Shown here one piece after another: positions 4,230 through 23,609 of a DNA stretch of 64,000 nucleotides. The notes under the pieces are model-generated. The model was given only the letters and a program-made list of their open reading frames with translations, ran no database searches and was not told the DNA's origin. The position numbers were made by a program, and so were the translations under genes. This stretch comes from an uncultured Flavobacteriales bacterium (GTDB taxonomy: Bacteria > Bacteroidota > Bacteroidia > Flavobacteriales_E > Vicingaceae), in the NCBI GenBank assembly GCA_913056345.1, contig CAJXMH010000006.1, forward strand, positions 1-64,000. Direction: 5' to 3'. The number at the start of each line of letters is the position of its first letter. The first letter of the stretch is position 1.

Positions 4230-5572
4230 TGCTTCGGTATTTTTTAAAGCGCATATTATGGTTAATTCCTACTCTATGGATTATTTCTGTAGTTGTATTT
4301 TTTCTTGCAAAAGCAACTAAGGGGGATGCTATTTCACCGCCTCGTTTTGAAGAAAATATGAGCTTAAAACAAGAGGCTGAATACTACAAGAGCGAACGAA
4401 TAAGAATGCGCCTTGACCTACCTCTTTTTTATTTTAACATCCATCGCGCAAGTCAAACAGACACTGTTTATCGTATCCCTGAAAGACATAGAGAAGCGCT
4501 CTTAAGTCTTGCCTACCATTGCAACAATTGGCCAAAAGTTGATCGCTTTTATGCAGCATTAAAAAAGGCAGCATTTCAAAAAAAAATAAGCAAAGCTGCG
4601 TTCAACAACCTCATCTCAAGCTATCACCAAAGCAGCTTAAAGGCCAATAAAAGTAAATGGACTAAGGAAATTGACTCTGTACCGGTTTTGAAGAAAAGAA
4701 TTATTGAGCTTCAAAGTAAGCACCTCTCACTAGATAATTACTTGCTAAATTTTAAATTCTATGGTTTTGACAACCAATACCAACAATGGCTTATAAGAGT
4801 ATTAAATGGCAATGGAGCTTATTCTAGCCTGCAACAAAAAGAACAAGGAAAACAACTACTAAGAGCGCTTCAATGGACACTAGGCATGAGTTTACTTTCA
4901 CTCTTTCTAGCCTTTGGCTTGGCATTATTACTTGGCCTTTTGGCTTTCAAGCCTGCATTCAAACAATTTAAGCCCTATTTAGAGCGGATTTTTTTAAGCC
5001 TTTACGCCACGCCAAATTTTCTTATGGCAACTATATTGATCTTCTTTTTTGCAAGTGGTCATGTTCTTAAATGGCTACCGCTATATGGAATTGGCGATGC
5101 AAGCGAAACTGATGGTACCTTTTCCCTAATCCAACTGCGAGCACCTTACCTAATTCTTCCGTTGATCTGTTACACATATGCGGCACTGGCCTATTTTTTT
5201 GAACAGGTGAAAGGCAACCTTGCAAATCAATTAAAGAGCGATTATTTGCTAACAGCTCAAGCCAAAGGTTTATCTTACTTCGCTAGTCTTAGCAAACATG
5301 CCCTTCCGAATGCTATAATTTCCTTAATCAGTCTTTTGGGAAGTTCAATACCAGCATTGATTTCTGGCTCATTCATTATTGAAACCATTTTCAACCTGCC
5401 GGGCATGGGCAAACTCAGTGTAGAAGCTTTTCTAAATCGTGATTATGATCTGATTTTTACTATCACACTCATTGGGGCAGCCTTAACCCTACTAGGCAAT
5501 TTAATTAGCGACTTTGCTTATCATGCAGCCGATCCTAGGATTAGCATATACCAAAAGGAGAAAGCGAAATGA
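4226..5572 (+). CDS. ABC transporter permease, DppB type, with large insert
   Basis: An inner-membrane permease of 448 residues that pairs with the following gene to form the channel of a peptide-type importer. The start is ATG at 4226, overlapping the upstream stop; upstream in-frame starts lie inside the previous gene. TM1 is at about residues 4-30 and the permease core at about 215-445. The cytoplasmic EAA loop that contacts the ATPase is clear near residues 343-362 (T-A-Q-A-K-G-L then H-A-L-P-N-A). Between TM1 and TM2 lies an insert of roughly 115 mostly polar residues (about 70-185), which makes the protein about 100 residues longer than typical DppB. It should sit in the periplasm. No ATPase gene is present nearby. 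Confidence 0.85.
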   Translation: MMLRYFLKRILWLIPTLWIISVVVFFLAKATKGDAISPPRFEENMSLKQEAEYYKSERIRMRLDLPLFYFNIHRASQTDTVYRIPERHREALLSLAYHCNNWPKVDRFYAALKKAAFQKKISKAAFNNLISSYHQSSLKANKSKWTKEIDSVPVLKKRIIELQSKHLSLDNYLLNFKFYGFDNQYQQWLIRVLNGNGAYSSLQQKEQGKQLLRALQWTLGMSLLSLFLAFGLALLLGLLAFKPAFKQFKPYLERIFLSLYATPNFLMATILIFFFASGHVLKWLPLYGIGDASETDGTFSLIQLRAPYLILPLICYTYAALAYFFEQVKGNLANQLKSDYLLTAQAKGLSYFASLSKHALPNAIISLISLLGSSIPALISGSFIIETIFNLPGMGKLSVEAFLNRDYDLIFTITLIGAALTLLGNLISDFAYHAADPRISIYQKEKAK

Positions 5573-6732
5573 AAAAAGCAAACTTTCATACGCTGAGCTT
5601 GGCTTACCTGTACCTTGGCCTTATGGCAGTTCTTGGGATCTTAGCTCCTATCTTAGCAAACGATAAACCTCTAATTGCAAAAAGTGAAAATGCTTGGCAT
5701 TTCCCATTCTTGAGGGAAGGTCTTTATGAGAAAAGTGATTACCATTGGCAGTTAAATCCACCCATCCCTTACGGTGAAGGCAGCTTAGAGTATGCTCAAA
5801 GTGATGCCATTAGCCCATTTGATGATCAATCAAAAAAAGCTTGGAATCAGAGACATTGGTTAGGTACAGATCAACTTGGTCGGGATGTATTAACTCAATT
5901 GATTTACGGCTGCAGAACTGCTTTTTGGGTAGGCTTAGGTAGTATGTTGATTGCTTTCATAATAGGCATAGCGGTTGGTGGATTTTCAGCTTATCTTGGT
6001 GATGGGCAACTTAGCTATACATGGCCTAAATATCTCTTCTTTTTATTACTTGGAATACTTAGCATCATTGCATTTACCCTTATACCACCTTATCAAGTAA
6101 AGGGTGTGAGCACTAGTCAGTTGCTAAGTCCAATCCTCTCGATTTGCTTATTGATTGTTCTGCTACTTTTAATAGCGCGCTTATTATTTAAAAGGTATTC
6201 GGATATTAAAAGCAAGCAGTTCAACCTACCGCTTGACCTTTTCTTGAATCGTTTGATCGAATTGATTGATAGTCTACCCAGCCTACTTTTAGTAATTGCC
6301 TTAAGTGCCTTGATTCAAGGTGGAGTGGCGAGTCTTATCCTTATTATTGGCCTTACCGCTTGGACTGGTATTGCTAAACTATTCAGAGCAGAAGTCCTAA
6401 AAATAAAGAATAGCCCATTTATAAGCAGTGCGCAAAGTCTAGGCTTCGGCAATTCTCGAATCCTTTTCAAACATATACTGCCCAACGCTCTACCCTCTGT
6501 TACGGTTGCTATCAGCTTTGGAGTTTCATCAGCTATTTTAGCAGAATCAAGCCTTTCTTTCCTAGGTCTAGGTTTAAGTGGTGCCCAAGCTTCATGGGGT
6601 GCCATGATCGCATCAGCGAGGGTTGACCTCGAAGCGTGGTGGGTTCTACTCTTTCCTGCTCTTGCCATCTTCTTAACATTACTTTCATGCCATACGATAG
6701 GCAAAAGCATAATGAAACAGCAGCATACTTGA
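5569..6732 (+). CDS. ABC transporter permease, DppC type
   Basis: The second permease (387 residues) of the importer. ATG at 5569 overlaps the stop of the DppB-like gene as ATGA. The family signature L-G-T-D-x-x-G-R-D is at residues 98-106, followed by the first TM of the permease domain. The EAA loop is near 287-307 (S-A-Q-S-L-G-F then H-I-L-P-N-A-L). Residues 153-207 contain two additional predicted TM helices absent from standard DppC, so both permeases of this operon are enlarged between TM1 and TM2. No terminator is obvious after the stop. The ATP-binding subunits must be encoded elsewhere. Confidence 0.85.
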   Translation: MKKANFHTLSLAYLYLGLMAVLGILAPILANDKPLIAKSENAWHFPFLREGLYEKSDYHWQLNPPIPYGEGSLEYAQSDAISPFDDQSKKAWNQRHWLGTDQLGRDVLTQLIYGCRTAFWVGLGSMLIAFIIGIAVGGFSAYLGDGQLSYTWPKYLFFLLLGILSIIAFTLIPPYQVKGVSTSQLLSPILSICLLIVLLLLIARLLFKRYSDIKSKQFNLPLDLFLNRLIELIDSLPSLLLVIALSALIQGGVASLILIIGLTAWTGIAKLFRAEVLKIKNSPFISSAQSLGFGNSRILFKHILPNALPSVTVAISFGVSSAILAESSLSFLGLGLSGAQASWGAMIASARVDLEAWWVLLFPALAIFLTLLSCHTIGKSIMKQQHT

Positions 6733-6838
6733 TCTAGCATAAGACCATTTAAGTATTCATTTTGTAGCTGTTCATAAGGATAAGTAAAGCGGTTTATGCA
6801 TAATTTCATGATTCTCTTAACAAGATTGAAATAGAAAG

Positions 6839-7939
6839 ATGAAAAGGTTCTTCATTCCCATTATAATTTTTACAATTATCCTTTTACCTGCATGCAAGGT
6901 AGGACGGTTTTTTGTTTACAATTATGCAGATATTAAAGACTACAAGAAATTCCAAAATCGAACATTAGAAGCACCTGATCAAAGTTTTCAGTTTGCCGTT
7001 GCTAAAAAAGGAAGAGCGGTTAGAAATTTGAATATCAACGGAAAAGACTACCCTTTTGATCAATATGCTGAAGATAATAAGACTGTAGCTTTTTTAGTAA
7101 TTCAAAACGACACTATCCAATATGAGAAATATTGGAAGAATTATACTAAATCATCCATCGTCCCTTCCTTTTCGATGGCAAAGTCGATTCTATCTATTTT
7201 AATTGGTATTGCAATCGATGAGGGCAAAATCAAATCTGTTAAAGAGCCCATCACCAATTACATTCCTGAGTTAAAATCACAAGGATTTGAAAAAGTAAAT
7301 ATTGAACACTTATTGCAAATGACTTCAGGAATAGAATTCAAAGAAAGTTATTCTAACCCTTTTGGTGAAGCAGCCACTTTTTATTACGGTCGAAATTTGC
7401 GCAAAGCGATTAGTAAATTGGAATTTGAAGTTGAAGCAGGTGAGAGACATTATTATTCAAGCGGAGACAGTCAGATTCTTGGATTGATCCTAGAAAGAGC
7501 GCTTGGAGAACAAACGCTTACTAACTATTTACAAGAAAAAATATGGCAACCGCTTGGCATGGAATACGATGCTTCCTGGAGTATTGACCGTAAAAAGAAT
7601 GGACTCGAAAAAACCTTTTGTTGCGTTAATGCAAGAGCTCGCGATTTTGCTAAAATTGGTCGTCTGTACCTCAATAATGGAGAGTGGAATGGGAAACAGA
7701 TCGTTTCAAAAGGTTGGGTTGAAACTTCCACTCAAATTGATACCACAAATGGCAGCGAGTGGTACTACCAATATCAATGGTGGCTACCAACAAAAACAGG
7801 CGACTTTATGGCTCAAGGTATACTTGGACAATACATTTATGTTAACCCTGAAAAGAACTTGATCATTGTAAGACTGGGAAAAAAGCAAGGCGATGCCAAT
7901 TGGTGGCAGATTTTGGCGAGTTTGGGAAGGGTGTATTAA
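6839..7939 (+). CDS. Serine hydrolase, beta-lactamase class C fold, lipoprotein
   Basis: This 366-residue protein has a lipoprotein signal peptide ending LLPAC (Cys19), so it is anchored in an envelope membrane. The penicillin-binding/class C fold motifs are present: S-M-A-K at residues 112-115 with nucleophile Ser112, and Y-S-S at about 206-208 in place of Y-x-N. A C-terminal region ends IIVRLGKK, consistent with the last strand of the fold. The family includes esterases, D-aminopeptidases and low-molecular-weight PBPs, so the substrate is open. It is monocistronic, 106 nt after the ABC operon and in the same direction. Confidence 0.8.
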   Translation: MKRFFIPIIIFTIILLPACKVGRFFVYNYADIKDYKKFQNRTLEAPDQSFQFAVAKKGRAVRNLNINGKDYPFDQYAEDNKTVAFLVIQNDTIQYEKYWKNYTKSSIVPSFSMAKSILSILIGIAIDEGKIKSVKEPITNYIPELKSQGFEKVNIEHLLQMTSGIEFKESYSNPFGEAATFYYGRNLRKAISKLEFEVEAGERHYYSSGDSQILGLILERALGEQTLTNYLQEKIWQPLGMEYDASWSIDRKKNGLEKTFCCVNARARDFAKIGRLYLNNGEWNGKQIVSKGWVETSTQIDTTNGSEWYYQYQWWLPTKTGDFMAQGILGQYIYVNPEKNLIIVRLGKKQGDANWWQILASLGRVY

Positions 7940-14670: not shown

Positions 14671-15240
14671 ATGTACGCTGTATTCCCCCTTAGCATAGTC
14701 GTATTGCCTAATGAGTCGGTCGCACTCCACTTATTCGAGCCTCGATATCGTCAGTTATTCCAAGATTATAAGGATGGTGATGAGTTTGCAATAGTTTATG
14801 AGGATAAAAATGGATTAGCTGAATTTGGAACTTTGGTTTACATCGATAAAATAATCAATGAATTCCCTGATGAGACGGTTGATGTAATTGTTAAAGGTTC
14901 TTCTATAATTAAGTTAGAAGAATTTGTAGAGCAATATCCCGATAAATTATACTCAGCAATAGAGGGAGAGGTGATTGAATTTTCGATGGAGGCTAAGACA
15001 TCGCTCAAAGAAAAGTTTCTCACTTACTTAAAAACATCAGGCAAACGTATTTCTAAAAGTCAACCACTAGACCTGTTCTACATTGCCAACAGGTTAGAAT
15101 TAGATGCAGAAACCAAAAACAAATTGATTTCGTTGGATAATAATGCCGAAATGAATCACTTCTTAGTAAACCAACTTAATTTTTTGGAAAAGATTAGGGA
15201 GCAGGAGTCTTTACTGCAACAGAAATTCCACCTTAATTAG
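14671..15240 (+). CDS. Stand-alone LON substrate-binding-domain protein
   Basis: A 189-residue protein matching the N-terminal (LAN/LON) domain of Lon protease: F-P-L-S-I-V-V-L-P-N near the start, then L-x-L-F-E-P-R-Y-R-Q-L and an E-F-G-T-L-V-Y-I strand. The AAA+ and protease domains are absent. Homologues are widespread, and a substrate-recruiting or regulatory role is only inferred. I use ATG 14671; a TTG two codons upstream is possible. Its 3' end overlaps the convergent CoA-binding gene by 4 nt. Confidence 0.8.
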   Translation: MYAVFPLSIVVLPNESVALHLFEPRYRQLFQDYKDGDEFAIVYEDKNGLAEFGTLVYIDKIINEFPDETVDVIVKGSSIIKLEEFVEQYPDKLYSAIEGEVIEFSMEAKTSLKEKFLTYLKTSGKRISKSQPLDLFYIANRLELDAETKNKLISLDNNAEMNHFLVNQLNFLEKIREQESLLQQKFHLN

Positions 15241-15602
15241 TATAAATTATTTGATAGCATAACTAGCGTGCAGGCGTCCAAGCATTCTATATCCTGCTGC
15301 TCCAGTTTTTCGATCAGGTTTTCATTGTATGTACCTGGGTTGAAAATAACCCTATTCGGTTTTTGTTTTAGTATATAATCATAATAAGGTTCTTGATTTT
15401 TAGGCGAAAGGTATAGCGTTATAGTGTCAACATCCTCATAGTCTTCTTCTGCTTTCTGAAGCTCAACTCCTGCTACTTTACCCTTTTTTAAACTCACTGC
15501 AATAACCTCATGACCTTTTGCGCTCAATCTTTCAATCGCTTTATAAGAATAACGACTAGGATTTGTAGATGCTCCAAGCACCATGGTTTTTTTTGACTTC
15601 AT
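15237..15602 (-). CDS. CoA-binding protein (Rossmann fold)
   Basis: A 121-residue CoA_binding_2-type single-domain protein, related to E. coli YccU. The nucleotide-binding start [11 protein letters not shown] is followed by [12 protein letters not shown] and later F-N-P-G-T-Y-N-E. Small proteins of this family bind CoA but their physiological role is unsettled. The ATG at 15602 is preceded by TATCTTTG and exactly 4 nt. It is divergent from purT with only 56 nt between start codons. Confidence 0.82.
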
Positions 15603-15606
15603 TTGG

Positions 15607-15614
15607 CAAAGATA
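15607..15614 (-). promoter_or_regulatory. TAnnTTTG promoter element, 4 nt before ATG
   Basis: Minus strand TATCTTTG, then CCAA, then the ATG of the CoA-binding gene. Fourth exact 4-nt case. Confidence 0.6.
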
Positions 15615-15658
15615 GCTTGCTTAATTTAGGGCGTGAAAAGAATCAAGGATTTAAAAAA

Positions 15659-16825
15659 ATGACAAAAACATTTTTACTACTCGGATCAGGTGAATTGGGT
15701 AAAGAATTTGCCATCAGCGCACAACGTTACGGACAAAGAATAATTGCAGTTGATAGCTATAAAAATGCACCTGCTATGCAAATTGCCGATGCATTTGAAG
15801 TAATCAATATGCTTGATGGGGACGCTTTGGAGGGCATTGTTGAAAAGCACCAACCTGATTATATCGTTCCTGAAATCGAAGCGATTAGGACAGAAAAGCT
15901 TTACGATTTCGAAAAAGCAGGCATTCAAGTGGTACCCTCAGCCAAAGCAACGAATTACACCATGGATCGCAAAGCAATTAGAGACCTTGCTGCTCAAAAG
16001 CTTGGTTTAAGAACAGCAGCATACAGTTATGCTAAAAGTCTTGAAGAAATGAAAGCAGCAGTTGAGCAAGTAGGAATTCCTTGTGTAATTAAACCACTTA
16101 TGTCTTCTTCAGGGAAAGGACAATCAGTAATTCGAAACAAAGCAGAAATACAGCAGGCTTGGGAATTTGCTCAGGCAGGAAGTCGAGGAGATTTGGCAGA
16201 AGTGATTGTAGAAGCTTTTATTGCTTTTGAATCAGAGATCACTTTGCTTACGGTTAGCCAGAAAGACGGACCTACCCTATTCTGTCCGCCCATTGGTCAC
16301 CGACAAGAAAGGGGAGATTACCAAGAAAGTTGGCAACCTGCCAAGATACCTTTAGATTGGCTAAAAGAAGCCCAAGATATGGCAGCCAAAGTTACCGAAG
16401 AACTTGGCGGAGCAGGAATTTGGGGAGTTGAGTTTTTCCTAGCAAAAGAGGGAGTCTACTTCTCAGAGCTCTCCCCTCGCCCGCATGATACCGGAATGGT
16501 TACATTGGCAGGGACACAAAACTTCAATGAGTTTGAGCTGCATTTAAGAGCCATCTTAGGACTTCCTATCGCAGAAATACAGCAACTAAGACATGGGGCT
16601 AATGCCGTAATCTTAGCAACTGAAAAAAGTGTGTCTGCTCCTCAGTTTTCTGGTCTTGAAGAAATATGTGATGATCCGAATACTGATTTCAGGATTTTTG
16701 GTAAACCAAGCTCAAGGCCTTTTAGAAGAATGGGCATCTGTATGGCTTCAGGTAATTTAGAGACCGATGTCAATTTACTTAGAAAGAAAGTCGGCGAAAT
16801 GAAAGATAAATTAAAGTTACACTAG
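15659..16825 (+). CDS. purT: Formate-dependent GAR formyltransferase
   Basis: PurT is an ATP-grasp enzyme making formyl-GAR from GAR, formate and ATP in purine synthesis. The 388-residue protein begins [19 protein letters not shown], the usual N-terminal Rossmann motif. An ATP-grasp loop SSSGKGQS lies near residue 148, and a conserved [10 protein letters not shown] segment near 272. I choose ATG 15659 because earlier starts would run into the divergent CoA-binding gene and add a non-conserved leader. Length fits E. coli PurT (392). No other pur gene is nearby. Confidence 0.95.
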
Positions 16826-16873
16826 ACCTTTCTTATTATTCTTGATGCTATATGAATGAATCTTTCTTTAGAT

Positions 16874-16881
16874 TATCTTTG
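16874..16881 (+). promoter_or_regulatory. TAnnTTTG promoter element of the phytochrome operon
   Basis: TATCTTTG lies 34 nt before the TTG start at 16916. It is the only clear match between purT and the bacteriophytochrome gene. Confidence 0.45.
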
Positions 16882-16915
16882 GCTTTAGGTATACATTACT
16901 TCTTATTTAAAATCC

Positions 16916-19288
16916 TTGAAATTTAAAAAGCTCGAAAATAATTACTTAGCCAACCTAGAAAATTGCGACGAAGAGCCAATTCATTTGATTGGAAAAGTTC
17001 AAGAGAATGAATTATTACTAGCCTTCGATCTAGAAAACTTTCAACTGACTCATTTTTCTGAAGGGCTAAAAAACAAACTGAGCTGTTTTTTTAAGACCTC
17101 TAAGCCTAAGCCAAAATTAGAGGACCTCTTTAACTATGATTTATTAAAGGAAGCAGAGGCCTTTGTCAAAGAGAATAGCAGTAATTACTTAAGGGAGCAT
17201 ACCGAATCATGGCAAGAAGATGATTATGTCATAAGGTTCGTTAAGGCAAAAGCTTTTCTAATTTTAGAACTAGAAAAGTTTAACCGTTCTGAAAACATTA
17301 AAATAAATAGCGCAATAAGGCCATTAGAAAACTTTTCAGAAGGGATAGAACGCTACAAGAACCTAGCAGACATAGCAACCAATGCCGTTTATTACTTTCG
17401 GCAATTGACAAAGTTTGACAGGGTGATGTTTTACAAATTTCACCAGAATGGCGATGGCGAGGTAATTGCTGAAGATAAAAAAGTGGGCTTAGAATCTTTT
17501 TTAGGACTGCGATACCCCGCTAGTGATATACCTGAACAGGCTCGAAAGCTATACATTGCAAACCCTATTAGAACTATAACAGACACGAACAGTGAGGGAG
17601 ATGCCATCTACAGCCTGCAAGGTCAAGAGATGTTAGATTTAAGTCATTCAGCATTTCGGAGTGTAAGTCCAATTCACTTAGAATACTTACGAAACATGGG
17701 AGTGAGTGCCTCACAATCTTTATCCATACTAGCAAATGGTAAGCTTTGGGGAATGCTTATTTGCCACCATTACACTACACCGAAAAGGTTGAATTTGAGC
17801 CAATTCAGTTTATGTAAGGTTTTTGGCTCAGTTATTTCTTCTTGGATCTTATCTGAAGCAATTCGAATAAAAGAAAATACACTTCGAATCGGAAACCAGA
17901 TCGATAGTGAGTTAAAAGAAAATAAATCCCTTAGCGGAAGCTTTAAGCTGCTAGAGAATACTTGGCCAAGCCTTTCTAAAGCCTTAAACATTTGCGGCTA
18001 TGCAGTTAGAAATCAAGACGACTATGAATTTTATGGTGACTGTCCTAAGAAAGAAGTTTTAATACCAATTCTTGAAGACTTACAAATTGATAAAACTAAA
18101 TCGCTCTTTATAGAATCGAAAGAGGAATTAGGGCTAGTAAAAAGTGAAGAAATAGAAGTTGCGGGATTAGCAGCTTTTACCTTGATCGATAAAATAAATA
18201 AGACCGTTTTTTTGTTTAGGAAGGAGCACCAAACTGAACACAAATGGGCAGGTAAAACCTCTAAAGATAGATATGGTAAGGTTAGCTTAAGTCCACGTAA
18301 GAGTTTTGATAAATGGGTTGAGAAAGTTAAAGGACAAAGCCTCACTTGGAGTGAAGCAGACAAAGTTTTGGTTGAGAGGCTGAAGGAAAGCTTAATTGAT
18401 GTTCTTCTACAACAGCTAGAGGAAAATGAAGACGAGGAAAAACTAAAAGGTTTATATGAACAGAAGATCAAAAGTTTAAAAATAGACTCAGAGGAATTCA
18501 TTAATCAACATCGAATACTTACAGCGGAGTATACGAAATTAAAAAGCATGGTGCTGGGCAGCGAACAACTTGCAGGATTGCAACAAAACGTACTTTCAAA
18601 AATGAGTCACGAAATGAGGACTCCACTAAATGGTATTATGGGTCTTTCAGATTTGTTGAACACTGAATTAGAAAAAACAGATCTCGCAAATAAAGTTCAT
18701 CTACAGGAGTATAGCAGATTGATCAAAGAGAGTGGAGATAGAATGCTCAAAACGTTTAATCGTTTGTTAGAAATAGGCAAAAACTCTAGAACTGAAGTTC
18801 AACTTAAACTGGACAACATCACGCTAGATCAATTTTTTGAAAGTGTAATCGATCCATTGAGGCCTTTGGCAAAAAAGTTAAACCAAAAGATCTTTTTTCA
18901 ATCTCATAACACTGTTAATCAAATTGTAACAGATGAATTATTTCTTTCGCAAATAATTTCAAACTTGGTACAAAATGCCATCAAATACGCAGGAAAGGAA
19001 GCAAGCATTGAAGTAGGATATAAATTGGTTTACGAGCAAGAAGAAAGGATACTTATTCTTGAAGTACACGATGATGGAAATGGCATTGAAAAGTCAGAGC
19101 AAACCAAAATATTTGAACCATTTTACAGCACGAAAGATCTAACAAAGTCTGCAGATCAATCATCAGGCTTAGGTCTTTACTTGGTAAAATCTTACGTTGA
19201 ATTTTTGGGAGGTAAAATAGAATTAGAAAGTGACCTAGGAAAGGGTAGCTCTTTTAAGTTATTCATCCCTGTAGAAAAAGTGAATTAA
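16916..19288 (+). CDS. Bacteriophytochrome sensor histidine kinase
   Basis: A 790-residue red/far-red light sensor with a complete photosensory module. Cys17 in C-D-E-E-P-I-H is the expected biliverdin attachment site in the N-terminal PAS region. The GAF domain carries P-A-S-D-I-P (201-206), His254 in SPIHLEYLRNMG, and the H-H-Y motif (284-286). The PHY domain has the tongue motifs W-A-G (444-446) and P-R-K-S-F (460-464). A coiled coil leads to the HisKA H-box with phospho-His565 (S-H-E-M-R-T-P), then an ATPase domain ending G-L-G-L-Y-L. The start is TTG, since no in-frame ATG precedes the conserved Cys. A receiver gene follows after 1 nt and heme oxygenase after that. Confidence 0.93.
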   Translation: MKFKKLENNYLANLENCDEEPIHLIGKVQENELLLAFDLENFQLTHFSEGLKNKLSCFFKTSKPKPKLEDLFNYDLLKEAEAFVKENSSNYLREHTESWQEDDYVIRFVKAKAFLILELEKFNRSENIKINSAIRPLENFSEGIERYKNLADIATNAVYYFRQLTKFDRVMFYKFHQNGDGEVIAEDKKVGLESFLGLRYPASDIPEQARKLYIANPIRTITDTNSEGDAIYSLQGQEMLDLSHSAFRSVSPIHLEYLRNMGVSASQSLSILANGKLWGMLICHHYTTPKRLNLSQFSLCKVFGSVISSWILSEAIRIKENTLRIGNQIDSELKENKSLSGSFKLLENTWPSLSKALNICGYAVRNQDDYEFYGDCPKKEVLIPILEDLQIDKTKSLFIESKEELGLVKSEEIEVAGLAAFTLIDKINKTVFLFRKEHQTEHKWAGKTSKDRYGKVSLSPRKSFDKWVEKVKGQSLTWSEADKVLVERLKESLIDVLLQQLEENEDEEKLKGLYEQKIKSLKIDSEEFINQHRILTAEYTKLKSMVLGSEQLAGLQQNVLSKMSHEMRTPLNGIMGLSDLLNTELEKTDLANKVHLQEYSRLIKESGDRMLKTFNRLLEIGKNSRTEVQLKLDNITLDQFFESVIDPLRPLAKKLNQKIFFQSHNTVNQIVTDELFLSQIISNLVQNAIKYAGKEASIEVGYKLVYEQEERILILEVHDDGNGIEKSEQTKIFEPFYSTKDLTKSADQSSGLGLYLVKSYVEFLGGKIELESDLGKGSSFKLFIPVEKVN

Positions 19289-19289
19289 A

Positions 19290-19670
19290 ATGAAAATACT
19301 TTACGTTGAAGACAATTACGCCAATCGCTTAGTTTTAGAGCGTGGTTTAGAGGCCCATGTAGCTAAAATTGACACTGAAGAAAATGGCTTCAAAGCTTTT
19401 AGCATGGCTGAAAAAGAAGATTACGATGTCTACATCTTAGACCTTAACCTTGGTGATCCTGAAATAGATGGCATTAGCTTACTTAAAAAATTAAAAACCA
19501 TTAGACCAAATGCCATTTACGCAGCCTTAACAGCTTTTGATGATGCTGAATGGAGAGAAAGATGCGAACGCTCAGGTTTCGACTTATTCTTTGGTAAACC
19601 CATTGACGCTAAAGAGTTGTTAGAAGCAATCAAAAATTACAAAAAGGAAAATCCCGCCCTTGGAAAGTAA
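19290..19670 (+). CDS. Single-domain response regulator
   Basis: A CheY-like receiver of 126 residues without an output domain. The acidic pair is Glu7-Asp8, the phosphoacceptor Asp51 (Y-I-L-D-L), the switch Thr81 and the conserved Lys103 (F-G-K-P). It begins 1 nt after the phytochrome kinase, so it is almost certainly its partner. How the signal leaves this receiver is unknown: it may relay to another phosphotransfer protein or act by protein contact, as cyanobacterial Rcp1-type regulators do. Confidence 0.92.
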   Translation: MKILYVEDNYANRLVLERGLEAHVAKIDTEENGFKAFSMAEKEDYDVYILDLNLGDPEIDGISLLKKLKTIRPNAIYAALTAFDDAEWRERCERSGFDLFFGKPIDAKELLEAIKNYKKENPALGK

Positions 19671-20223
19671 GGCTAACTCATTACATCAATTCCTTAAAAC
19701 TGAGACAAAGCGTCTGCATCAAGATGCTGAAAAAAGCTTAAAAGCTGAAGAATTATTCTCGCCTGCATTAAAGCAAGCTGAATTAATTGACCACCTTAAA
19801 ATTCAAGCAGCTAGTCACCAAAGGCTTCAGGAAGCGCTAAACACTTTCAAAGGGTCAAGCTTTCTTCACTCATTTTGGCCATTAGAAGATTTTGCAGCTT
19901 TAGCTTATCATGACCTAAATAATTTTGAAGTTAGCTCTATTCCACTGCCTCCTGAAGTTAATTTTGAAAACCCCTATCAAGCAGTTGGTGCTTTGTACGT
20001 TATAAATGGTTCTTCATTGGGTAGAAGACATATTGGTAAAGCTCTAAAAGCCAAAGTAAAGCAGTGGCAAATCAAGCCATTACAATTTTATCCACCCAAG
20101 GCAAATCAAGGAATAAATTGGCCACTTTTTTGCGAAAACCTCAATAAGTTGGAGTTGACTAAAGAAGAGCGTGCACAAGTGTTAGTTGGTGCAAAGAAAA
20201 CCTTTGGGGTGTTTATTAATTGA
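19660..20223 (+). CDS. Biliverdin-producing heme oxygenase
   Basis: A 187-residue bacterial heme oxygenase of the phytochrome-associated type. It opens heme to biliverdin, CO and iron, supplying the chromophore of the kinase encoded two genes upstream. The proximal heme ligand should be His20 in T-K-R-L-H-Q-D-A-E. The flexible distal-helix motif is G-S-S-L-G-R at 117-122 (G-A-L-Y-V just before). The start is TTG at 19660, overlapping the receiver gene by 11 nt, so translation is probably coupled. There is no terminator until the tRNA tail repeats. Confidence 0.9.
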   Translation: MESKANSLHQFLKTETKRLHQDAEKSLKAEELFSPALKQAELIDHLKIQAASHQRLQEALNTFKGSSFLHSFWPLEDFAALAYHDLNNFEVSSIPLPPEVNFENPYQAVGALYVINGSSLGRRHIGKALKAKVKQWQIKPLQFYPPKANQGINWPLFCENLNKLELTKEERAQVLVGAKKTFGVFIN

Positions 20224-20246
20224 GCAAAAATTCAAACATAGCCAGC

Positions 20247-20361
20247 GATTCCCTCCCCTGCGCTTCGGGCATCCCAAAAGGGGTTAGCTTCACCAAAATC
20301 CCACTTTGCTAATGAAAAGTCAGTGATTTTTTATTTTCCTACACCTACAAGCAAGCTTGAC
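20247..20361 (-). repeat. tRNA-tail repeat unit 1 at the tRNA-Ser locus
   Basis: A 115-bp unit from GATTCCCTCC to CAAGCAAGCTTGAC. It contains a terminator-like hairpin whose arms carry AAAATC and GATTTT. A second 115-bp copy begins 40 nt downstream with about ten differences. The end boxes match those of the units at 1750-1991, while the middle is different. Confidence 0.75.
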
Positions 20362-20401
20362 CTAAGTCAGAATGAAAAGAAATCTAACTATTTGTAACTA
20401 G

Positions 20402-20516
20402 GATTCCCTCCGCTTCGCTACGGGCATCCCAAAAGGGGTTAGCTTCACCAAAATCCCACTTTGCTAATGCAAAGTCAGTGATTTTTCTTTTTCCTACACT
20501 TACAAGCAAGCTTGAC
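20402..20516 (-). repeat. tRNA-tail repeat unit 2 at the tRNA-Ser locus
   Basis: A 115-bp second copy, containing CCTCCGCTTCGCTACGGGC, then CTTTGCTAATGCAAAG within the AAAATC/GATTTT hairpin, and ending CAAGCAAGCTTGAC. It lies 10 nt from the tRNA terminator and downstream of the minus-strand tRNA-Ser. Confidence 0.75.
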
Positions 20517-20526
20517 GTTTGGAAAA

Positions 20527-20559
20527 TAAAAAATCCCACAGTTTTCACTGCGGGATTTT
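20527..20559 (-). terminator. Terminator of tRNA-Ser(TGA)
   Basis: AAATCCCACAGT pairs with ACTGCGGGATTT (one G-T on the minus strand) around a 4-nt loop. On the minus strand a run of seven T follows. It is directly downstream of the tRNA 3' end. Confidence 0.8.
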
Positions 20560-20561
20560 GG

Positions 20562-20649
20562 TGGCGGAGAAAGAGGGATTCGAACCCCCGGTACCTTGCG
20601 GTACGCTGGTTTTCAAGACCAGTGCATTCGACCGCTCTGCCATTTCTCC
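20562..20649 (-). tRNA. tRNA-Ser (anticodon TGA), CCA encoded
   Basis: Class II tRNA on the minus strand. The 5' acceptor GGAGAAA pairs with TTTCTCC, discriminator G, and CCA is genomically encoded (20562-20564). The anticodon arm is CTGGT-CTTGAAA-ACCAG, giving TGA. The variable arm GTACCGCAAGGTAC is long. TACTTTTG lies 4 nt before the mature 5' end, so the primary transcript may have no 5' leader. Confidence 0.97.
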
Positions 20650-20653
20650 GCGG

Positions 20654-20661
20654 CAAAAGTA
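20654..20661 (-). promoter_or_regulatory. TAnnTTTG promoter element, 4 nt before tRNA-Ser
   Basis: Minus strand TACTTTTG, then CCGC, then the first base of the tRNA. The distance is the same as in the four leaderless protein genes. Confidence 0.6.
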
Positions 20662-20739
20662 ATAAAGCCTTTTATATTTATTAATTTTTATAAAACGTTT
20701 TTTTCACTTTCCGTGTCTTCTATCTGTAATTTAGTGTTT

Positions 20740-22185
20740 ATGAAGAAAATCTTGCTCTTTTTGGGATTGGCAGTTTACTCGTTTTCTAGTTCTGCTCAGC
20801 TTAATCTTATCTTAGATTATGCAAGTTTTTACCATGAAGATTCGGGTCCTTATTTAGAGGTTTACCTTAACGTAAATGGAAGATCCTTGCAATACCAAGC
20901 TAATGATAGTGGTAAAATTCAAGCTTCTATAGAACTTACTTATTTAATTGAAAAAGAAGACAGCATTATTGCTTATGAAAAGTTCCAATTAAATAGCCCT
21001 CAGTACGAAACAACAGAAAATATCCTCGACATGAGGGACTTACATCGACTACCGATTAAAAATGGAAAATTCAAGTTTACGCTCATAGCTAAGGACTTAG
21101 TAAGTGGTGAGTTGGTTGAAAGCAGTCAAGAGCTTCGGGAGGTGCTATACAAGCCGTCGGTAGTTAATTTCTCTGGTGTTCAGTTGGCCAATAAAGTAAC
21201 GGCAAGCTCTATAAATGGGCCTTTCGTAAAAAATGGTTTCGATATAGAACCAAACCTAGCCCATTACTTTGGGGCTAATCAGCAAGCCCTTTACTTTTAC
21301 ACTGAGCTGTATTTTAGTGATCAAATCGGAGGCAATAACGAACCATTTTTGCTTGCTTATTCTATTGTGGATGCTAAAACAAAAAAACTGATGGCTAATC
21401 TCAGTGGCTTTAAGCGTCTAAATGGAAAAAACATCCACCCTGTTCTGCAATCTTTTGATCTTAAGAACCTACCATCCGGAAAATATGCCTTACTGCTACA
21501 GGCAAAAAATAAAAACAATGAGGTAGTATGCGAACAAAGCGTAGAGTTTTACCAGTCTAACCCTGGTCTTGTGAATTTTTCAGCCATCAATTCATTAAAC
21601 ACTTTTGTGGATAGTATGACCAATAAAGCTCAATTGGCAGAATATATACGCTCGCTTGATCCTATATCTAATGCCAATGAAAAAGCCTTTGCACAAAACC
21701 AGCTAAAGCATGCAGACTTAGAGTTTATGCAACAGTATTTCTTAAACTTTTGGAAAAGTCGGAACCCTGAAGAGCCCTACGTATCATGGCTTGCTTACCA
21801 AGCTGAACTAGAAAAGGTAGATCAATTGTTTGCTTATGGAAAAACACCGGGCTACAGAACGGAACGTGGCAGGATTTACCTGCAATATGGAGAACCAAAT
21901 TCCATGCAGAATGTGCCTTATGAACCTAATACCTTTCCTTACTCTGTTTGGCACTACAATAAGATTAATGGTATATCAAATCGGAAATTCATCTTCTTTA
22001 GCCCAAGCATGGAAGTTTTAGGCTATGAGGTTTTACACTCAAACGTTCCCGGCGAAATTCAAAACCCAAATTGGGAACTGCAATTGATGAGCAAATCAAA
22101 TGCGGGGATTCGGCCAACCCAAGAAACCCCTGAAAATACCATGATTAATCGCAGGGCTAGGGATCTTTGGGAAAATCCACGCTAA
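20740..22185 (+). CDS. GWxTD-domain exported protein
   Basis: A 481-residue protein with a signal peptide (about residues 1-20, MKKILLFLGLAVYSFSSSAQ). The C-terminal third matches the Bacteroidota GWxTD-domain family: a region of R-G-R-I-Y-L-Q-Y-G-E-P-N followed by Y-S-V-W-H-Y and K-F-I-F-F-S-P. These proteins are periplasmic or outer-membrane associated and of unknown function. I take ATG 20740, because upstream starts would run through the tRNA gene. It is 39 nt upstream of a glycosyltransferase gene that has its own promoter element. Confidence 0.75.
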   Translation: MKKILLFLGLAVYSFSSSAQLNLILDYASFYHEDSGPYLEVYLNVNGRSLQYQANDSGKIQASIELTYLIEKEDSIIAYEKFQLNSPQYETTENILDMRDLHRLPIKNGKFKFTLIAKDLVSGELVESSQELREVLYKPSVVNFSGVQLANKVTASSINGPFVKNGFDIEPNLAHYFGANQQALYFYTELYFSDQIGGNNEPFLLAYSIVDAKTKKLMANLSGFKRLNGKNIHPVLQSFDLKNLPSGKYALLLQAKNKNNEVVCEQSVEFYQSNPGLVNFSAINSLNTFVDSMTNKAQLAEYIRSLDPISNANEKAFAQNQLKHADLEFMQQYFLNFWKSRNPEEPYVSWLAYQAELEKVDQLFAYGKTPGYRTERGRIYLQYGEPNSMQNVPYEPNTFPYSVWHYNKINGISNRKFIFFSPSMEVLGYEVLHSNVPGEIQNPNWELQLMSKSNAGIRPTQETPENTMINRRARDLWENPR

Positions 22186-22199
22186 GTATTCGCTTTGTT

Positions 22200-22207
22200 T
22201 ACTTTTG
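22200..22207 (+). promoter_or_regulatory. TAnnTTTG promoter element of the glycosyltransferase
   Basis: TACTTTTG lies 17 nt before the ATG at 22225, in the short gap after the GWxTD gene. Confidence 0.45.
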
Positions 22208-22224
22208 TCTGCTAATTCAAAAGG

Positions 22225-23244
22225 ATGTCACTCTCAGTAGCGGTAGTTATTTTAAATTGGAATGGAAAAGAGCATTTATCTACATTCCTACCCTCAGTGG
22301 TAAAATACTCGAAGTCTGCAACCGTATACCTTGCCGACAATTGCTCTACTGATGATTCAATTTCTTTTGTCAAAAAGAACTTCCCTTCTGTTAGTATAAT
22401 TCAAAATCCTGAAAACGGTGGTTTTGCAAAAGGATATAACCAAGCATTAGAAAGCTTAAAGGAAGACATTTTTGTTTTGCTCAATTCTGATGTTGAAGTT
22501 AGTGAAAACTGGATCGAGCCTATCGTTAGCTGTATGGAACATGATCCGAGCATTAGTATCGCCCAACCAAAGATAAAGTCTTACCTAGAGAAAGAGTACT
22601 TTGAGTACGCCGGAGCTGCAGGAGGATTTATCGATCAATTAGGCTACCCTTTTTGCCAAGGGAGAATCTTTCAAAAAATTGAAAAAGACGAAGGACAATA
22701 CGATACAAGTAAAGAAGTATTTTGGGCAACAGGAGCATGTATGTTTATACGTTCCGCTGTTTTTAAAGCATTAGAAGGTTTTGATGAGCGCTATTTTGCA
22801 CACATGGAAGAGATTGACCTTTGTTGGAGAGCAAAAAACTTAGGTCATCGGGTATTTTATATTGCTGAAAGTGAAGTGTTTCACTTGGGTGGCGGAACCA
22901 TGCAAAATACCAATCCTCGTAAGACTTTTTTAAACTTCAGAAACAGCTTACTCACTTTACATAAAAATGACCACAGCGGTTACCGAAATCTTAAAGTCTT
23001 TTTACGCCTAATATTAGATTTTCCAGCTTTTATAAAGCTTTGGCTTGAAAGTGGTTTTATTCATGCTATCTCAATCCTTAAAGCTCATTTTTCGTTTTAC
23101 GGCATGGAAAAACACCGATCAGAGGTCAAAGGAGAGAACTTAAGGGGTATGTACCAAAAAAGTATCGTACAAGCCTATTTTCTTGAAGGAAAGAAAAGGT
23201 TTTCTCAACTGAAAAATGGCTTCATTTTGGCTAACAAAAACTGA
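22225..23244 (+). CDS. Glycosyltransferase family 2
   Basis: A 339-residue GT-A fold enzyme resembling rhamnosyltransferase-like family 2 proteins. Visible motifs are I-L-N-W-N-G near residue 8, A-D-N-C-S-T-D-D-S for nucleotide-sugar binding, N-G-G-F-A-K-G-Y-N, and the DxD-like N-S-D-V-E near 91. Later come G-A-C-M-F-I-R and E-E-I-D-L-C-W-R. Donor and acceptor are unknown. It probably adds sugars to a cell-surface glycan or lipid. Its 3' end overlaps the convergent thioesterase gene by 40 nt. Confidence 0.88.
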   Translation: MSLSVAVVILNWNGKEHLSTFLPSVVKYSKSATVYLADNCSTDDSISFVKKNFPSVSIIQNPENGGFAKGYNQALESLKEDIFVLLNSDVEVSENWIEPIVSCMEHDPSISIAQPKIKSYLEKEYFEYAGAAGGFIDQLGYPFCQGRIFQKIEKDEGQYDTSKEVFWATGACMFIRSAVFKALEGFDERYFAHMEEIDLCWRAKNLGHRVFYIAESEVFHLGGGTMQNTNPRKTFLNFRNSLLTLHKNDHSGYRNLKVFLRLILDFPAFIKLWLESGFIHAISILKAHFSFYGMEKHRSEVKGENLRGMYQKSIVQAYFLEGKKRFSQLKNGFILANKN

Positions 23245-23609
23245 GGAGGTTTACACAGTTTCTTAGTGGCTATATCCATAAAAAGTAAGGTAGTACTTGC
23301 CTCGATCAGTATTGTTTCTTCTCGGTATACTTTATAATGAAATAGCATTTTCGATTCAGGCATTTCTCTCACTTCGCAATCAACCCGTATTTCATCGTCA
23401 TAAGTAGCAGCCTTTCGATAAGTAATATTTAGATCTCGAACTGGCATAGCAATCCCCTCCTCTTCCATTTCTCGATAAGAGATTCCAATCTTTTTCATTA
23501 GCACTACTCTGCCAATTTCAAGGTACTGAGCATAATTTCCATAATAGACAAAACCCATTTGGTCTGTTTCCGAATACCTTACTCTTAAATACTCGCTACT
23601 TTTAATCAT
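23205..23609 (-). CDS. Acyl-CoA thioesterase, 4HBT (YbgC-like) fold
   Basis: A 134-residue hot-dog-fold protein. The catalytic segment is Y-S-E-T-D-Q-M-G-F-V-Y-Y-G-N-Y, with Asp16 as the expected acid and Y-L-E-I-G-R just after. These enzymes hydrolyse short- to medium-chain acyl-CoA. It stands alone on the minus strand and converges on the glycosyltransferase, sharing 40 nt at the 3' ends. Confidence 0.88.
   Translation of the reverse strand: MIKSSEYLRVRYSETDQMGFVYYGNYAQYLEIGRVVLMKKIGISYREMEEEGIAMPVRDLNITYRKAATYDDEIRVDCEVREMPESKMLFHYKVYREETILIEASTTLLFMDIATKKLCKPPQFLLAKMKPFFS

Follow-up and report, generated by a model that had tools for sequence, protein, structure and literature searches.

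We analyzed a three-gene cassette in a 64,000-nucleotide stretch of DNA, hereafter the window, from an uncultured Flavobacteriales bacterium. The cassette occupies window positions 16916–20223 (+), where the list of open reading frames (ORFs) contains the co-directional genes bphP, bphR and bphO, encoding a bacteriophytochrome histidine kinase, a stand-alone receiver and a heme oxygenase. Our reading, tentative and falling just short of even confidence, is that the cassette specifies a split-hybrid red/far-red sensor in which BphR most likely relays phosphate to an HPt domain, with a LytTR output the first to test. The type of cassette, one without an output domain, is already known; its kinase/receiver module is a variant.

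The initial annotation described contiguous kinase, receiver and heme oxygenase genes, and the ORF coordinates and Pfam matches agree with that description. The bphP gene (16916..19288, +; 790 amino acids, TTG start; assigned by ORF, Pfam, phmmer and alignment) is followed after a gap of 1 nucleotide (nt) by bphR (19290..19670, +; 126 amino acids, ATG start; assigned by ORF, Pfam, tree and alignment), which overlaps by 11 nt with bphO (19660..20223, +; 187 amino acids, TTG start; assigned by ORF, Pfam, alignment and PDB comparison). The TTG starts of bphP and bphO are assumed. Pfam domains scoring above their own curated cut-offs were PAS_2, GAF, PHY, HisKA and HATPase_c in BphP, Response_reg in BphR, and Heme_oxygenase in BphO. 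This gene trio recurs, with its order unchanged, in four further genomes, indicating that the cassette is more than a chance arrangement.

Photosensory module and heme oxygenase

The PAS-GAF-PHY photosensory module of a bacteriophytochrome was recognized in BphP by Pfam and by phmmer, the latter matching solved bacteriophytochromes such as 6bap (E 7.3e-59). The PAS_2 domain spans amino acids 17–120 (16964..17275, +; Pfam), the GAF domain amino acids 150–292 (17363..17791, +; Pfam and alignment), and the PHY domain, which carries the WAG and PRKSF tongue motifs, amino acids 344–500 (17945..18415, +; Pfam and alignment). The residues expected of a bacteriophytochrome could be read from the window: a Cys before the PAS domain (Cys17, codon TGC at 16964–16966), the Asp of PASDIP (D204, 17525–17527), the GAF His (H254, 17675–17677), and the tongue residues W444-A445-G446 and P460-R461-x-S463-F464. 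The chromophore, tongue and kinase residues of BphP all fall in invariant columns of an alignment of seven phytochromes, and the earlier statement that Cys17, PASDIP, His254, WAG, PRKSF and the phosphotransfer residues are intact is borne out by both the window sequence and the alignments. Some features depart from the norm. The QxHG stretch after Cys17 is QENE in BphP, and the PHY match begins only at position 20 of the Pfam profile. The NCBIfam BphP equivalog NF041576 matched with an E value of 1.1e-56, yet its score of 192.5 bits fell short of the cut-off of 1040; from its sequence we assign BphP to the general bacteriophytochrome family and do not claim the narrow equivalog. A structure model of BphP, built from a 3-row alignment, had a mean predicted local distance difference test score (pLDDT) of 47.9 and was not used.

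The profile, fold and proximal His of the HO-1 family were all found in BphO. Its match to PF01126 scored 49.2 bits against a cut-off of 23, and His20 (19717–19719) lies in a His column that is invariant among 28 aligned oxygenases; no NCBIfam model matched the protein. The predicted structure had a mean pLDDT of 77.7, and all 50 PDB entries listed as its matches were heme oxygenases, with Z scores of 11.8–17.5. Based on its family and its place in the operon, BphO would form biliverdin from heme, and the residues of BphP suggest that biliverdin would attach to Cys17. Red/far-red photoactivity is the likeliest reading of the BphP sequence.

A five-genome clade with a variant kinase and receiver

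We compared 42 phytochrome ORFs, drawn from the window, L022–L025 and genomes of the class. The photosensory modules of five genomes formed a clade (support 100/99; tree of 42 rows), as did their receivers (99/83; 65 rows) and their oxygenases (98/95; 30 rows). Recovery of this clade separately for each of the three genes indicates that bphP, bphR and bphO stayed together. The members are the window (family f1), a Flavobacteriia metagenome-assembled genome (MAG; L022), a Bacteroidia MAG (L023), L087 (G345, family f15) and L090 (G288, family f29), such that the clade spans at least three families; the other clade BphPs have no more than 38% identity to that of the window. The kinases and receivers of this clade differ from those of the other phytochrome systems compared in three ways: the length of the neck, the type of H-box and the type of receiver.

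The neck between the PHY and HisKA domains of BphP (amino acids 501–555; 18416..18580, +) was recognized as long from the distance between the tongue and the phospho-acceptor His. Of the 42 phytochrome ORFs, 31 allowed this distance to be measured; the other 11 were left out because the motif or the kinase was not found in the ORF. It is 104 residues in the window BphP and 99, 103, 104, 112 and 112 across the clade, compared to 66–73 in the 26 other phytochromes measured; clade members are thus at least 26 residues longer. By Pfam, the neck is followed by a HisKA domain (amino acids 556–622; 18581..18781, +) with the H-box SHEMRTPLNGIMG and the phospho-acceptor His565 at 18608–18610, and by a HATPase_c domain (amino acids 673–787; 18932..19276, +). 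The kinase residues H565, N683 and D719/G721/G723 are all present. An H-box of the SHE-[RK]TP type was found in 5/5 clade members but in 0/33 other phytochrome kinases; SHEIRTP[LM]N is the H-box of 7 of the 8 rows labelled as hybrid kinases in that set. No HWE model matched BphP at E ≤ 0.01 (Pfam HisKA, E 3e-13), and BphP does not have the organization of an HWE-kinase phytochrome, an HWE kinase with a fused C-terminal receiver, as its receiver is a separate ORF. In one phytochrome ORF outside the clade (L077, G190; 4943–7267), the H-box region reads SIGNDLKEP, apparently without a phospho-acceptor His.

BphR contains E7, D8, D51 (19440–19442), T81 and K103, and the E7, D8, D51 and K103 columns are invariant among 10 aligned receivers. 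In the receiver tree the clade receivers group at 93/91 with the receivers of six hybrid kinases, including an HK-REC-HPt protein (histidine kinase, receiver, HPt) of the bacterium's own genome, and stand apart from the main phytochrome-adjacent receivers. The STSDNP...GANAY...FW features seen in most of the compared phytochrome-adjacent receivers are missing from BphR, which instead has AGFDxYxxKP-like and LNLGDPxIDG stretches. Its likeness to the lone phytochrome receivers of the Rcp1/BphR type lies in its being a lone receiver encoded with a phytochrome. These sequence features support, but do not prove, that BphR is a detached receiver of the hybrid-kinase type. A hybrid histidine kinase has its receiver fused to the kinase, whereas bphR is a separate ORF set off by a 1-nt gap; for this reason we use the term split hybrid-like. 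Among the non-clade rows of the receiver tree, the nearest is a stand-alone receiver encoded behind a multi-PAS kinase (L007, G037). That locus (1–2602) pairs the kinase with a detached receiver of 127 amino acids, again a kinase with a separate receiver; no PHY match is given for G037 in the class scan, which names only matching genomes and some others and is to be read with care on this point.

The initial annotation emphasized that the operon has no output domain. This is true of the cassette, but it is the usual bacterial design and not news: 13 of the 37 non-clade phytochrome ORFs are directly followed by a co-directional receiver gene, and comparable operons are described or annotated elsewhere. 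The order BphP-receiver-oxygenase on one strand was found in 13/42 phytochrome ORFs, comprising 5/5 in the clade and 8/37 among the others. In PMC8363230, the Deinococcus radiodurans operon bphO-bphP-bphR likewise joins an oxygenase, a PAS-GAF-PHY kinase and a lone receiver with no output domain; its gene order differs from that of the window, and the DrBphP sequence itself lies outside our comparison. In Deinococcus actinosclerus, a plasmid carries a cassette annotated as receiver-oxygenase-phytochrome, and a Hymenobacter tibetensis plasmid has one annotated as oxygenase-kinase-receiver followed by a hybrid kinase. Six Bacteroidota loci (L061, L062, L065, L071, L072 and L075) share the three genes of the window, with order and strand unchanged, but differ from it in their SHDL H-boxes, their tongue-to-His distance of 66 residues, and their receivers, which fall in the other phytochrome receiver group. 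Three further loci (L068, L073 and L076) have ORFs of approximately 500 amino acids containing only PAS-GAF-PHY, followed by ORFs of approximately 1500–1600 amino acids with a kinase match. PHY was found in 1/46 genomes of the same family (the family-level and order-level searches covered the same 46 genomes) and in 30/395 genomes of the class, and heme oxygenase in 4/60 relatives searched, this genome counted in each case.

Candidate relay and competing explanations

According to our reading, light would switch the PAS-GAF-PHY module and then, through the unusually long neck, the HisKA/HATPase kinase. The shared operon and the intact residues suggest that the kinase would exchange phosphate with BphR. 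BphR, as a putative detached receiver of the hybrid-kinase type, would most likely stand in the middle of a His-Asp-His-Asp relay, passing the phosphate on to an HPt domain. The initial annotation had placed the output with some unlinked partner; the receiver and H-box types point more specifically to a phosphorelay. The genome has 25 receiver matches, of which just two (BphR and C2:80125-80454) lie in ORFs whose short length would fit a lone receiver, and a single detected HPt, at the C-terminus of an 800-amino-acid PAS-PAS-HK-REC-HPt protein (C4:42325-44727, −). The gene for this protein is flanked by a gene for a heme-NO-binding H-NOX (HNOB) protein on one side and two REC-LytTR genes on the other, in an operon at G000:C4:40956-45263 (−; L167, 4957-9264). 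It is because the only detected HPt sits in an operon with two REC-LytTR regulators that LytTR-controlled transcription would be the first output to test. An HPt gene adjoins a REC-LytTR gene in 4/5 clade genomes compared to 7/26 other phytochrome genomes (Fisher p 0.042, ignoring kinship), or 7/24 when only other genomes with an HPt are counted.

Several observations weigh against this relay. Sequences for the comparison were collected using the kinase of the window as query, which favors hybrid-like kinases, and SHE-RTP-type H-boxes also occur in L003, L007 and L009, none of which is labelled hybrid. By the approximately unbiased (AU) test, a tree uniting the clade receivers with 13 other phytochrome-adjacent receivers was not quite rejected (p 0.06), and a common origin of the clade kinases with 31 main phytochrome kinases was not rejected (p 0.32). 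The HPt-LytTR neighbors were counted after the idea had been formed and with no correction for relatedness, and G288, a member of the clade, has no HPt beside a REC-LytTR gene. In the window's genome the HPt is fused to another receiver, which would compete with BphR. Each of the other four clade genomes encodes an HPt, but so do 24/26 other phytochrome genomes (E ≤ 0.01); the mere presence of an HPt is thus uninformative, and we rejected it as an argument for the relay. In the kinase tree the five clade kinases do not come together unaided, but a tree forcing them together was no worse (AU p 0.52). A kinase swap as a proven event was rejected given the p of 0.32. With these AU values and the bait-gathered comparison set, the sequences suggest, but do not prove, exchange of a kinase/receiver module into the clade phytochromes.

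A close rival to a relay through HPt is that BphR binds its target protein directly, as in an ordinary bph two-component system and as lone phytochrome receivers are assumed to do, with its odd sequence reflecting divergence only. We regard this as quite possible, though less likely than not. Lone receivers are frequent beside phytochromes, the AU tests leave common descent possible for both kinase and receiver, and in the PDB, BphR best matches lone receivers of the SpoF type. The best-matching of these, Spo0F, is however itself a step of a phosphorelay, and the receiver and H-box types are unlike those of the phytochrome systems compared.

A different possibility is that BphR is charged by another kinase and BphP acts chiefly as a phosphatase of BphR, or a drain for its phosphate, under light control, as reported for the DrBphP/DrBphR pair; according to PMC8363230, light activates DrBphP as a phosphatase of DrBphR. 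The sign of the kinase activity is unreadable from sequence, and the neck length is unlike that of other phytochromes. The kinase H, N, D and G residues are nevertheless all present and no sequence feature favors a phosphatase only, and we think this improbable. Still harder to credit is that BphP is no working red-light sensor in the cell, being unloaded with chromophore or sensing redox or temperature while BphO releases heme iron: the QENE stretch, the late start of the PHY match and the missed NCBIfam cut-off would fit, but the Cys, PASDIP, His254, tongue and kinase residues are intact and the oxygenase is retained in the operon in 5/5 clade genomes.

Genomic setting and significance

The cassette sits at the junction of two gene blocks (window 15237-23609) that are kept but lie apart in the relatives examined; in G007 they are approximately 223 kb apart on one contig. 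The upstream block runs from thiolase to purT, and the downstream block contains tRNA-Ser, a GWxTD protein, a glycosyltransferase and a thioesterase. No bph genes were found at E ≤ 1e-6 at the relatives' loci covered (5 purT loci and 17 of the 27 GWxTD loci outside the window). The cassette may have been gained at this site, consistent with its location at the block break and its presence in 1/46 family genomes, or may have been lost in the relatives. Horizontal gain at tRNA-Ser(tga) (20562–20649) was rejected: the GC content is unremarkable (bphP 0.357, bphR 0.373 and bphO 0.374, compared to purT 0.418 and dnaA 0.374), no integrase was seen in the analysis of this site, and the nearby repeats do not flank the cassette. 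These repeats comprise two direct copies of 115 nt with 94% identity, located between bphO and tRNA-Ser (20247–20361 and 20402–20516); shorter matches to the repeat occur at 1832–1866 and 1956–1990, upstream of tRNA-Pro/tRNA-Ser genes (2042–2363). A listed ORF of 90 amino acids (20384–20656, −) overlying tRNA-Ser(tga) is probably not a gene.

A weak candidate for the −7 element of a Bacteroidota-type promoter, TATCTTTG (16874..16881, +), lies 34 nt before the bphP start. The sequence TANNTTTG, which we take to be the consensus of this element, is rarer in the window than expected (65 matches compared to 85.9 from shuffles). The promoter scan revealed no sigma-70-like promoter upstream of bphP.

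The initial annotation portrayed the light response as belonging to a heterotroph and suggested ties to gliding, adhesion or pigment. Nothing in the present analysis speaks for those ties, and the label of heterotroph has to be qualified. The same genome encodes a rhodopsin (C4:56374-57126; Pfam Bac_rhodopsin), whose helix-C motif reads D-T-E, presumably that of a proton pump, and the gene is followed by a homologue of beta-carotene 15,15'-dioxygenase (the pair at G000:C4:56374-58091; L183, 6375-8092). With a rhodopsin and a carotene-cleaving enzyme present, the light input through BphP is not isolated in a purely heterotrophic genome. The rhodopsin gene is approximately 12 kb from the H-NOX/hybrid-kinase/LytTR operon.

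Little is known of the targets on which lone phytochrome receivers act. If BphR is of the phosphorelay type, its next partner becomes predictable, namely an HPt domain, for which the genome holds one detected candidate. In PMC4422448, rearrangements of phytochrome sensors and kinases are described as many, with the receiver expected to be exchanged along with the kinase; our reading, if true, would provide a case of such an exchange. The same source describes fungal and diatom phytochromes as having a classical kinase with a fused C-terminal receiver. They share with the clade a hybrid-type output of kinase and receiver, the receiver here being a separate gene, a likeness drawn from description and not from compared sequences. 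The open-access literature searched, as far as its text was accessible, held no description of a split-hybrid phytochrome cassette. That the clade as a whole is a distinct bacterial phytochrome lineage with a split hybrid kinase output, relaying from BphP through BphR and HPt to LytTR, is a broader proposal that we consider unlikely. If true, the clade would offer in bacteria an equivalent of the kinase output with fused receiver described for fungal and diatom phytochromes, and light and nitric oxide would converge on one HPt in the window's genome.

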